Assembly: GCF_000724625.1 (NCBI RefSeq)
Contig: NZ_CP007139.1
Coordinates: 992,001 to 1,056,000 of the forward strand
Direction: 5' to 3'
From: Fimbriimonas ginsengisoli Gsoil 348
GTDB taxonomy: Bacteria; Armatimonadota; Fimbriimonadia; Fimbriimonadales; Fimbriimonadaceae
Length of the DNA stretch: 64,000 bases
The translations under genes were made by a program, and so were the position numbers. The notes beneath the pieces were generated by a model that searched no databases, was not told where the DNA came from, and was given only the letters and a program-made list of their open reading frames with translations. Of the stretch, positions 24,133 to 55,960 are shown in pieces (within the stretch, counting starts at the first letter, position 1; each line of letters opens with the position of its first letter).

Positions 24133-26105
24133 TACTTCTTCCGATGCAGTTCCGCTAACTGCTTAGCCAGTTTGAGCTGGGCTCGGGCGATCGTTAGGCG
24201 CGTTTTGGCGATTTCGAGCTCGGTTTTTCCAAGCTTGCCAGACATCCGGTGAAGACGCAGAGACTGTAGCTTCTCTACGGTTAGCCGCTGCTCCGCCGCG
24301 GCTCGCTGCAATGCGGTCGCGTCGAACTGCGACTTAGCCAGCGACAGTTGCTCGACCGCGAGTTTTTGGTTTAGAAGCTTAACCTTCAACCCTTGCAATT
24401 GCTGGACCGTCAGCCTCTGCTCGGCGGCAGCCTTTGCCGCGAGTGCCGTTTCGATCCGCAAACCAGAGCCCGCTAGTTGGGCAGATTCCGTGCCTTTTTT
24501 CGCTCGGGCCGCCTGCACCAGCTCCAGTTGCGCCGACAACGTCGCCGGCCGGGCATCGGCTTGGGCACGCACCAGCGATATTGAGTTCGCAAGATTCGTG
24601 GCGAGCGGAGCCGACGTGGTCACCGCAGCATGGGTTTGGATAGGTGAAGTCGTAAACGTGATGCTGCTAGCCAGCCTGGCTGAAAGGTTGGAGGTCGCTT
24701 GAGCCGATGACGGGCTCGTCACTTGCGGAGCGACGGATGCGATCGCAGAAGGAGTGGACAAGGCGATGTCGACCGTCCTGGGAGCCACCGAGGGAACCCA
24801 CCGTAGACCGCTCACCGCGTGGGGAGCGGTCACCGCCCGCAGGTTAATCGAGGGCCGGGGCGCGGCGGGCGCCGGCTTGGGAGCGGCGGACACAACATAG
24901 GCGGGCACAGAGACAACATAAACGGGCACGGAGTTCGCAGTTGGGCGATGGGAGTGGCGCTTCGCCGACGAATGCTTGAGCTTCTTCGCCTTGCCGGGCC
25001 GCGAGATGGCTTGCGGAGCGATGACCGCTTTGGCGGGGCGTACCGCAACCGGCGCGGTAGGCGCTAGCAGGGCCGGGGGCGGCGATTGAACGACAGCCGG
25101 ACGAAGGGTGGCCAGTGGGAACAAGGTGGCAATACCGAGAGTGGCGGCTACCAGGGTTTCGGTAAGGGTCGCGCCGCGGCGGCGCGCTCGGGGGTCGAGG
25201 ATTGCCTCGATTCTTCTTTCGATCTTGGATCTCTTCATGATGGGAACTCCGACGGCCGCAAACGGCTGCCTTCTTCTTCCGAGGGCGGCGGCGATTCCGA
25301 GCAACGCTTCGGCGTAGACCGAGGGGGTCACGCCAGAGCGGAGCACGGCATCGTCGGCCGCACCTTCGGCTTCCGCCCGCATGGCTCGCGCGCAGAGCCA
25401 AACGACCGGGTTAAACCAGTAAAGGGCGCAAGTAGCGACCGCGACGAGCTGGCTCGCGCAATCCCTCCGACGCACGTGGGCGAGTTCGTGAAGCACGACG
25501 GCTTCCAGGCGCTCTTGTGGCCACGCAAGCGCCACCTCCGGCAGCATGACGACCGGGCGGCGAATGCCCCAAGTCATCGCGGTCGGAGGGTAGGGACCGG
25601 CGGCGACCCGCAGCTCCCAATTCCTTTCAAGTCCGGCACGATCGGCCAGATGGGTGACGTCGACCGCCGGCGCGACCGCCCGGCGTCGAAGCAAACAGAG
25701 CGCGATCAGCGCAACCAGCGCTTCCGCTCCGGCGAGAACCGCCCCGAATACCCACAATCCGACCACAGCGGGAAGCCGAGGCTTTGCCGGGTCGACCGGC
25801 GGCAGCTCGGTCACTGCCGGTCGATCGGACATCGGGAGCGTCAACTCGACCGCGTTAAGCGTTTCGACCGGCGCGGCCTCGGCGGCGATCCGAACGACCG
25901 GGATCGGGTGCGAGGGTAGGAGGAGTCCGGCGATCGGCGTTACCAAGGCGGCGACGAATGCCACGCTCCAAACGAGGTGCCTCGTGGCGGCGCTATGGCG
26001 GGAAAGGAGGCGGGTTACTCCCCACGCGAGGAGCAGAAAAGCGGTCGACACCGCGACGAATCCCGCACAGGCGAGCGATAGGTCGAGCCAACCCTCTCCG
26101 TTCAT
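24132..26105 (-). CDS. BlaR1-like M56 membrane metallopeptidase sensor
   Basis: Membrane-embedded zinc peptidase that, in the BlaR1/MecR1 family, senses a signal and triggers cleavage of a BlaI repressor; 657 aa. About four membrane helices (residues 10-32, 40-62, 110-140, 225-245) surround the zinc motif HELAH (206-210). After a last helix near 335-355 there is a long Ala/Pro/Val/Ser-rich region and a Gln/Leu/Lys coiled coil (about 560-657) instead of a penicillin-binding domain. It is coupled to the upstream BlaI gene by an ATGA overlap. The ligand is probably not a beta-lactam, since the sensor domain is missing. Confidence 0.88.
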   Translation of the reverse strand: MNGEGWLDLSLACAGFVAVSTAFLLLAWGVTRLLSRHSAATRHLVWSVAFVAALVTPIAGLLLPSHPIPVVRIAAEAAPVETLNAVELTLPMSDRPAVTELPPVDPAKPRLPAVVGLWVFGAVLAGAEALVALIALCLLRRRAVAPAVDVTHLADRAGLERNWELRVAAGPYPPTAMTWGIRRPVVMLPEVALAWPQERLEAVVLHELAHVRRRDCASQLVAVATCALYWFNPVVWLCARAMRAEAEGAADDAVLRSGVTPSVYAEALLGIAAALGRRRQPFAAVGVPIMKRSKIERRIEAILDPRARRRGATLTETLVAATLGIATLFPLATLRPAVVQSPPPALLAPTAPVAVRPAKAVIAPQAISRPGKAKKLKHSSAKRHSHRPTANSVPVYVVSVPAYVVSAAPKPAPAAPRPSINLRAVTAPHAVSGLRWVPSVAPRTVDIALSTPSAIASVAPQVTSPSSAQATSNLSARLASSITFTTSPIQTHAAVTTSAPLATNLANSISLVRAQADARPATLSAQLELVQAARAKKGTESAQLAGSGLRIETALAAKAAAEQRLTVQQLQGLKVKLLNQKLAVEQLSLAKSQFDATALQRAAAEQRLTVEKLQSLRLHRMSGKLGKTELEIAKTRLTIARAQLKLAKQLAELHRKK

Positions 26106-53852: not shown

Positions 53853-53907
53853 ATCACGACATATGTCGTGATCTGTGTTATTCTGTTTGTGACGGCATAT
53901 GTCGTCA
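53853..53907 (+). promoter_or_regulatory. Two BlaI-type operators (ACGACATATGTCGT)
   Basis: A perfect 20-bp palindrome at 53853-53872 and a near-perfect 18-bp copy at 53890-53907, the latter 9 nt before the BlaI start. The centres are 36 bp apart. The sequence differs fully from the operators of the other BlaI gene (26488-26547), so the two systems should be insulated from each other. Confidence 0.82.
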
Positions 53908-53916
53908 TAAATTCAG

Positions 53917-54306
53917 ATGGCAAAACGTAGCGGAGTTGGAGAGGCGGAGATGGAGCTACTTAACTTCATCTCGGGGAAAGGAGGCGCGACGGTCGGCGAA
54001 GCGGCCGCGTTTCTCCACGAGACGAAGGGACACTCGCGCACCACGGCCCAGAGCGTGATGGAACGCCTGCGGAAGAAGGGTTACCTGAGGCGCGAAAAGA
54101 TCGAAGGCGTCTTTCGATACATCCCCTCGCGCTCCGGACCCACCGTAGTGGGAGAGCTGCTCGACGATTTCGTGGCGCGGGTGCTCGGAGGGTCGGTAGA
54201 TCCGCTTGTCACTTATCTCACCGAAAAGGTCGACCTGGACGATCAGCAGTTGAGCCAGCTTCGAAAGTTGGTTCGCGAATTGGAGGAGAAGGATGCCGGC
54301 CGCTGA
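53917..54306 (+). CDS. BlaI/MecI-family transcriptional repressor
   Basis: Winged-helix repressor, 129 aa: VGEAEMELLNFISGKGGATVGE and RTTAQSVMERLRKKGYLRREK form the DNA-binding domain, followed by the C-terminal dimerisation helices ending in LVRELEEKDAGR. It overlaps the following M56 gene by 14 nt and has two palindromic operators upstream. Expected to be inactivated by the partner protease. Confidence 0.93.
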   Translation: MAKRSGVGEAEMELLNFISGKGGATVGEAAAFLHETKGHSRTTAQSVMERLRKKGYLRREKIEGVFRYIPSRSGPTVVGELLDDFVARVLGGSVDPLVTYLTEKVDLDDQQLSQLRKLVRELEEKDAGR

Positions 54307-55960
54307 TCCGCTGCTTATTGGTCCCACGCTCGTGGTGGCGGCCGCGGCCCTCGCACTAAAGCTGTTCCCACGTCTCGCGCCGAGGTGGAGAGCTTGGGTT
54401 TGGCGATGCGTCTTGCTCAAGCTCCTCCTCGGGGTCTTACCGGTCGGAGCGATTCAGCTACCCTGGCTACCGGCCGAGCCGGCTGTTCAGGAGTACAGTT
54501 ATGCCGTTGGCCCCGCTCCCTCAACCGGCGTCGATCCGGTTTGGCTCCTTTTAGGAGTCGGCGTGGCGGTCGCGTTGGTCACAGGGCTTCGCTCCTTCCT
54601 CTTTGGCCGTCGAATCGTCCGCACCGCGCAAACGGTTGTGGAGCCGTCGGCAAGGCAAGAATTGGAGCGGCTTGGGAGAGCCGGTGGACTCCGGGTTCCG
54701 CCCAGAATGCTGGCAAGCGAGGAGCAAGATGTACCGCTCCTGTTGGCCGGCCGTCCGGCCGCGATCGTGCTTCCAGTCGCCTATCTACTGGGAAGGCTTG
54801 GGGATCTCCGCATGGCGCTAGCCCATGAGATCGGCCATCTTGCCCGGCGCGATTTGGCTTGGTCCGGGCTCGCCATGGTCGTCCGCTCCATCTTCTTTTT
54901 CCATCCGTTCGTATGGCTGGCCGTCCGCGCTCATGCCGAAGCGCAAGAGTCCGCCACCGACGAGCTCGCCATCGAGCTGACAAATGCGCCGGTCTCGGCG
55001 TATGCCGACCTTCTCTTAAGGGCGAGCGTTCGCCAGCCCATCGACCAGATTTCCGGAAGCGCGGGGCTGGCAATGGCCGGCTCCTACCGCACCGTCGAAA
55101 GGAGGATCCAAGCCTTGAAGAACATCTCAACCGCTCGCCGCCAGCCGCGGCCGGCTCTCCGATGCGTCGCGCCGTTCCTCGCGCTCGCTTTTCTACCGAC
55201 TTACCAACTCGTACCGGCGCCTCCGGCTCCGGCGGCTCCCGCGCATCCGCCAAAACCGGCCGTGTCCAGATCGATTAAGGGGATTCCCCCGCCGCCGGCA
55301 ATGGTTTTCTCGGCCGACCAGCGACCAACTCGGGCTCGGTCTAAGGCTCGGCGTCGCCACCGACTCCGGCATGTCAGTCCGCCGGCTAGAGCGTCTATCG
55401 TGTGGCATCGTAGCGCCGATTCCCTCCCTCCTCCCGCGAAGCCGCCGACGTGGCATCGGCTCCCGCAGGCTCCGGATCCCCGGGCCTGGGGAGAGATCCC
55501 GCCTGCTCCGGCCGCTCCTTCGGTGGATGGTATTAGGCGACCCGGCTCCGCTCTTCCGCCGCCCGTCCCTTCGGCCGATATGGCCAGGCGGCCAGGTTCC
55601 GTTATCCCGCCCTCCGTTCCTTCGGCCGATACAGTCAGGCGGCCCGGGTCCGTTCCCCCACTCCTCGCCCCTTCGGCGGATATGGTCAGGCGGCCCGCCC
55701 GAAGACAAGTGCCTGCCGATCGTGTTCGTCGCGCGAAGGACCCCCGGCGGGTGCCGTTCCTCAGCGAGATTCCCATCGTCGGCCATGCGTTCGTTTCGCG
55801 GGACCGTGCCCCGATCGTGCCCGCCCCGCCGATCCCGGACGGGCCGGTTCGACCCCAAGCTACTCGCCGGGTACCGGTTCTTAGCGACATTCCGATTATC
55901 GGCCGGCTCTTCGTTACCACGGTCGACCACGACGTACCGTCGGCCCAGCCGCCGAAATAG
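54293..55960 (+). CDS. BlaR1-like M56 peptidase with repeat tail and secretin-like motifs
   Basis: Membrane zinc peptidase of 555 aa. Helices lie at about 8-24, 38-58, 83-105 and 190-210, and the catalytic H178-E179...H182 is in LAHEIGHLARRD. After a final helix (about 290-305) comes a long Pro/Arg/Ser-rich tail with a 17-residue repeat (RRPGSxxPPxxPSADxx) three times at 415-465. Two copies of a motif near 485-500 and 525-540, RRVPFLSEIPIVGHAF and RRVPVLSDIPIIGRLF, closely resemble the conserved secretin signature VPLLGDIPxLGxLF. There is no penicillin-binding domain, so the sensed signal is unknown. Confidence 0.87.
   Translation: MPAADPLLIGPTLVVAAAALALKLFPRLAPRWRAWVWRCVLLKLLLGVLPVGAIQLPWLPAEPAVQEYSYAVGPAPSTGVDPVWLLLGVGVAVALVTGLRSFLFGRRIVRTAQTVVEPSARQELERLGRAGGLRVPPRMLASEEQDVPLLLAGRPAAIVLPVAYLLGRLGDLRMALAHEIGHLARRDLAWSGLAMVVRSIFFFHPFVWLAVRAHAEAQESATDELAIELTNAPVSAYADLLLRASVRQPIDQISGSAGLAMAGSYRTVERRIQALKNISTARRQPRPALRCVAPFLALAFLPTYQLVPAPPAPAAPAHPPKPAVSRSIKGIPPPPAMVFSADQRPTRARSKARRRHRLRHVSPPARASIVWHRSADSLPPPAKPPTWHRLPQAPDPRAWGEIPPAPAAPSVDGIRRPGSALPPPVPSADMARRPGSVIPPSVPSADTVRRPGSVPPLLAPSADMVRRPARRQVPADRVRRAKDPRRVPFLSEIPIVGHAFVSRDRAPIVPAPPIPDGPVRPQATRRVPVLSDIPIIGRLFVTTVDHDVPSAQPPK
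55535..55687 (+). repeat. 51-bp in-frame tandem repeat in the BlaR1 tail
   Basis: Three consecutive 17-codon units (55535-55585, 55586-55636, 55637-55687), moderately diverged at the DNA level, coding for RRPGS...PSAD. Confidence 0.75.

Follow-up and report, generated by a model that had tools for sequence, protein, structure and literature searches.

Secretin-like peptides in the C-terminal arm of an M56 membrane protease encoded beside a BlaI-family repressor in Fimbriimonas ginsengisoli Gsoil 348

The window analyzed is a stretch of 64,000 nt from the genome of Fimbriimonas ginsengisoli Gsoil 348 (5.23 Mb, single contig), an organism in which genes for pili and a T2SS are present. A gene for a BlaI-family repressor and a gene for a BlaR1-type M56 membrane protease (designated P0001) were found to share 14 nt (54293-54306), and two palindromes are situated 5′ of blaI (Table 1), so that both an adjoining BlaI-family gene and operator-like palindromes, as expected of a BlaI/M56 pair, are present. 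According to their translations, the upstream neighbours resemble the ATP-sulfurylase gene pair cysDN, and the downstream neighbour, which is convergent, is a DnaE-type polymerase gene. A second M56 protein in the window (L007, 656 aa, 25200-26048, minus strand) has a long tail unrelated to secretins, and at least eight M56 proteins of the genome scored above the Pfam cut-off.

Table 1. Coordinates (window positions) of the features of the blaI-M56 locus
Feature	Position	Strand	Basis and remarks
Likely BlaI operator 1	53853..53872	no strand	perfect 20-bp palindrome ATCACGACATATGTCGTGAT; from the sequence
Likely BlaI operator 2	53890..53907	no strand	near-palindrome TGACGGCATATGTCGTCA; from the sequence
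BlaI-family repressor gene	53917..54306	+	129 aa; Pfam Penicillinase_R, E 1.1e-18
BlaR1-type M56 membrane protease gene (P0001)	54293..55960	+	555 aa; Pfam Peptidase_M56 PF05569, E 1e-25
HEIGH zinc-protease motif	54824..54838	+	residues 178-182, intact
Last hydrophobic segment, presumed final transmembrane helix before the arm	55157..55213	+	residues 289-307; hydropathy, topology from BlaR1 analogy
Pro/Arg-rich arm, presumed periplasmic	55214..55957	+	residues 308-555
51-nt (17-residue) tandem repeat in the arm	55535..55697	+	about 3.2 copies; Tandem Repeats Finder
Secretin-like peptide, copy 1, RRVPFLSEIPIVGHAFV	55745..55795	+	E 0.0042 over the whole genome with the relatives-only secretin model
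Secretin-like peptide, copy 2, RRVPVLSDIPIIGRLFV	55865..55915	+	relatives-only secretin model, genome-wide E 4.4e-8; Pfam Secretin at residues 522-544

When the whole genome was scanned for the operator core at zero to one mismatch, the promoter of the blaI-M56 operon was the sole occurrence, and the clearest target of BlaI is therefore its own operon; the BlaI repressor and the M56 protease probably form a two-gene system that regulates itself. At two mismatches, five sites were located outside this and the other M56 operons, against two for a reversed-pattern control, which is near background. No operator-like site was detected in the genome-wide scan by any of the four secretin genes, so that control of these genes by BlaI via the same operator was rejected; no regulatory link to the secretin genes was seen, which argues against a simple circuit from secretin to regulon.

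P0001 was assigned to peptidase family M56 by its PF05569 match together with an HExxH zinc motif, of which H178, E179, and H182 were invariant across 67 M56 proteins. By hydropathy, hydrophobic segments were located near residues 7-25, 37-58, 82-103, and 289-307, and in the subsequent arm 54 Pro and 34 Arg were counted over residues 313-555. By analogy with BlaR1, in which the protease domain is cytosolic and the C-terminus extracytosolic (PMC7593790), residues 308-555 should face the periplasm. Codon-position G+C gave no clear sign of a frameshift in P0001. Structure predictions from single sequences reached a mean pLDDT of 35 for one secretin and 43 for P0001, were uninformative, and were set aside.

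The system resembles BlaR1/MecR1 with BlaI/MecI in that a gene for an M56 membrane zinc protease overlaps a BlaI-family repressor gene with operator-like palindromes in front, and in the C-terminal part following the last hydrophobic segment (PMC7593790). It differs in the arm, which in P0001 is Pro/Arg-rich and bears two secretin-like peptides, and no Pfam match to the penicillin-binding (class D β-lactamase-like) sensor domain of BlaR1/MecR1 was obtained in P0001. The NCBIfam model blaR1_generic, which has a cut-off of 400 bits, matched only the protease part, at 40.5 bits.

In agreement with the sequence-only reading, P0001 was found to end in two copies of RRVPxLSxIPIxGxxF, both in frame, with starts 120 nt (40 codons) apart. 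The Pfam model Secretin (PF00263) matched P0001 with 32.1 bits (E 1.1e-7, cut-off 27.5), which is the summed score of the two copies alone, and the match was limited to the motif, profile positions 129-151 of 169 (about 23 positions) being covered by the better copy. Thus, P0001 shares with secretins (PilQ/GspD) the conserved VPxLGxIPxxGxLF peptide, in two copies, and differs from them in the absence of a full β-domain and of N-domains by Pfam, as had been claimed for the rest of the protein; a full secretin domain was not detected, PF00263 covering the motif only despite passing the cut-off.

The claimed resemblance to the secretin signature was borne out: copy 2 was found by Pfam, by the NCBIfam models GspD, SctC, MshL, and PilQ, and by a relatives-only model for which ten secretin peptides had been taken from other genomes. 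Searched over the whole genome with the relatives-only model, the four secretins and copies 1 and 2 were the only six sites above noise (next match, E 0.5), and copy 2 slightly outscored two of the four secretins. Against the relatives-only motif model the tail scored 16.8 bits and the best of 20,000 composition-preserving shuffles 9.4 bits; the motif is therefore a better match to secretins than random Pro-rich tails are, which was the comparison fixed beforehand as the one that could refute the reading. Copy 1 is weaker than copy 2, with Ala in place of Leu before Phe. Both copies carry Ser for Gly, as in two of the genome's own secretins (L003, L044:6411-8234, and L004, L045:6729-8399), which have VPxLS and not VPxLG and whose genes are both in pilus-type operons. 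The hydrophobicity of the copies also resembles that of the genome's secretins. Between the copies, 9 of 17 third codon positions and 5 of 34 other positions differ (p 0.007), a bias that would arise if selection maintained the peptide in this frame, although a single pair provides weak evidence.

In secretins, VPxLGxIPxxGxLF is a conserved element between the last strands, according to alignments to solved secretins. The amphipathic helical loop (AHL) is described in structural reports as the most conserved secretin sequence, lying beside the β-lip at the inner leaflet of the outer membrane and needed for insertion (PMC6155069, PMC6532946, PMC10653833, PMC8134430). From this description of conservation and the position between the last strands, we infer that the 14-mer is the AHL, which makes docking on the outer membrane the natural first guess. 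The earlier placement of the motif in the secretin gate region is probably wrong, since the published structures locate the conserved peptide at the β-lip and outer membrane.

In a tree of 67 M56 domains, P0001 was placed in a clade of eight with a support of 100/99. The tails of four of its seven close relatives gave STN or GspD-N0 type matches, which are N-terminal secretin modules, and those of the other three were unrelated; the P0001 tail itself gave no Pfam match to STN, though its M56 domain places it in this STN-tailed clade. The peptide was absent from the close clade and from the other M56 tails examined in relatives, and also from the tails of 70 M56 frames read at 80 loci from a contig scan with the close M56 clade, and no true orthologue of P0001 carrying it was found.

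The tail of P0001 was further used as a query against 291 genomes of the phylum, and the best 30 loci were opened. Among these loci was a second case, an M56 protein (L176/L227, E 2.8e-26) from another genus of the same family, the nearest relatives of which are other M56 proteins than those of P0001 and which belongs to a different M56 subgroup. Its tail is long and Pro-rich, with one VPFLSDIPIIGRLF near the end that is identical to copy 2 of P0001 at 13 of 14 residues, and its gene adjoins a BlaI-like gene, as judged by eye. In the nearest relative of L176 (42% identical), the last residues of the tail are common to both proteins and the peptide is absent. At the DNA level, the coding sequence of the L176 peptide agrees at 34 of 42 nt with that of a secretin from the same genome. 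For the other refuting condition set beforehand, absence of the motif from all close homologues, the outcome was mixed: the motif was not found in the close clade, where four of the seven relatives have STN/N0 modules instead, and was found in one distant M56 protein.

Non-secretin proteins of congeners, L198 (G018) and L169/L196 (G015), were found to carry the peptide VPRLAELPIVGNLF or VPRLSEIPIVGNLF before an STN-like region; the L198 protein looks secreted, and a relative in G001 is without the peptide. A 733-aa frame (L270, G135:C4:325599-325679), not a typical secretin, contains the secretin-like peptide VPYLSNLPVIGATF mid-protein. The matches L167 and L168 from the search of the phylum were rejected as reading-frame noise.

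Modules directed to the envelope were encountered on other M56 proteins. TonB_C, the module with which TonB extends from the inner membrane to receptors in the outer membrane, was present in 6 of 66 M56 proteins fetched from named genomes, and a planctomycete (Sedimentisphaerales) M56 protein (L328:1049-4198) has a secretin domain (E 3.8e-16) and LysM in its tail. These tails provide a precedent for envelope-directed modules on M56 arms, among which secretin parts recur. P0001 is like the M56 proteins with TonB_C or STN tails in that its periplasmic tail would hold such a module, and differs in having, in place of a folded domain, a short secretin peptide that occurs twice. In two related M56 proteins, L046:7013-8428 of the same genome (G000:C1:1548426) and L077:1191-2654, the tail shows a weak likeness to the secretin β-domain (E about 0.03 for the own-genome protein) over the first half of that domain, and the AHL peptide is absent from both.

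The explanation that we tentatively prefer is that the M56 protease P0001 is coupled to BlaI and docks, via the peptides of its periplasmic arm, on the outer membrane, the secretin lip, or assembly factors. P0001 would be an inner-membrane protein with the zinc protease on the cytosolic side, and a TonB-like arm would span the periplasm so that the AHL copies rest on the outer membrane, on secretins, or on their assembly factors. This contact might change with secretin assembly, envelope spacing, or stress; the altered contact would move the last transmembrane helix and switch on the protease, and the active protease would then cleave BlaI, leading to derepression of the operon. The docking explanation draws on the non-chance match, the mostly third-position or synonymous differences between the copies, their secretin-like hydrophobicity, and the association of the AHL with the inner leaflet of the outer membrane and its requirement for insertion, as given in the reports cited above. 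It also draws on L176, a protein of another M56 subgroup that is encoded next to a BlaI-like gene and has the same peptide near the end of its Pro-rich tail, and on the STN/N0, TonB_C, and secretin plus LysM modules of other M56 proteins. Counted against it are the absence of the peptide from the close clade and from the nearest relative of L176, the action of the AHL in secretins between two transmembrane strands, the weaker copy 1, the absence of an operator near the secretin genes, and the uninformative structure predictions.

The main doubt about docking comes from the sporadic presence of the peptide, the rapid turnover of M56 tails, and the 34 of 42 nt match of L176, all of which also fit functionless capture. 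A serious rival, which we regard as somewhat doubtful, is accordingly that the arm is a fast-changing region under low constraint in which secretin fragments have been caught as evolutionary debris, by illegitimate recombination or through decay of a larger secretin fusion, and that the peptides now serve no purpose. Such capture would fit the nearest relative of L176, which keeps the last residues without the peptide, and the own-genome M56 protein L046, the tail of which is weakly similar to a secretin domain over the first half. However, the same 14-residue element, and not a random piece of secretin, turned up in M56 proteins of two subgroups as well as in an STN protein that is secreted, the two copies of P0001 differ mostly at third codon positions, and the close clade has STN rather than a secretin β-domain.

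It is unlikely, in our estimation, that P0001 is a dedicated sensor, a view close to the sequence-only reading, in which mimicry of the AHL of individual secretins made by the cell itself would let the peptides vie for the lip or an assembly factor and would give the protease a specific readout of secretin assembly. Copy 1 and the L176 peptide were compared with 59 secretin peptides, a panel with some bias from the way its loci were collected, and each had its best match in a secretin of its own genome (L003 and L263, respectively). For copy 2 the best match was not a secretin of the genome. A dedicated partner among the secretins is thus only a possibility, and the idea that each motif was copied from one specific secretin of its genome, which suits copy 1 and L176, was rejected because it fails for copy 2 in this partly biased panel. 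The use of VPxLS by two own secretins, as in the copies, favors such a sensor, as does the ability of cells to monitor secretins, Psp proteins binding mislocalised secretin multimers (PMC5596341), and the lack of an operator near the secretin genes speaks against it. Finally, a chance likeness of a low-complexity tail or a reading-frame artefact, for which the repetitive, Pro-rich tail and the further frames left open in G+C-rich DNA could be cited, is very improbable and was rejected in view of the shuffles, the genome-wide E value of copy 2, and the codon-position results, in addition to which both copies are in the same frame and the peptide recurs in L176.

A likeness of the docking arm to the Psp response (PspB/PspC) would hold only if P0001 reads secretins from the inner membrane (PMC5596341), and the proteins and regulators of that response are unrelated to P0001 and BlaI. 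Literature searches for a link between secretins and BlaR1 found nothing relevant.

To our knowledge, the inputs of M56/BlaI systems beyond β-lactam resistance are largely unknown. If the peptides act, they would identify the compartment in which one such sensor works, together with its probable partner, and the secretin AHL would have a life outside secretins; cells could also have in such a sensor a means, independent of Psp, of monitoring secretins or the outer membrane. A broader proposal, for which we see a small but appreciable chance, is that there is a class of M56 sensors, coupled to BlaI, in which the outer-membrane insertion peptide of secretins serves as bait on a periplasm-spanning arm, and with which secretin assembly or the outer membrane is read. 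If true, this sensor of the envelope would have been made out of part of what it senses.
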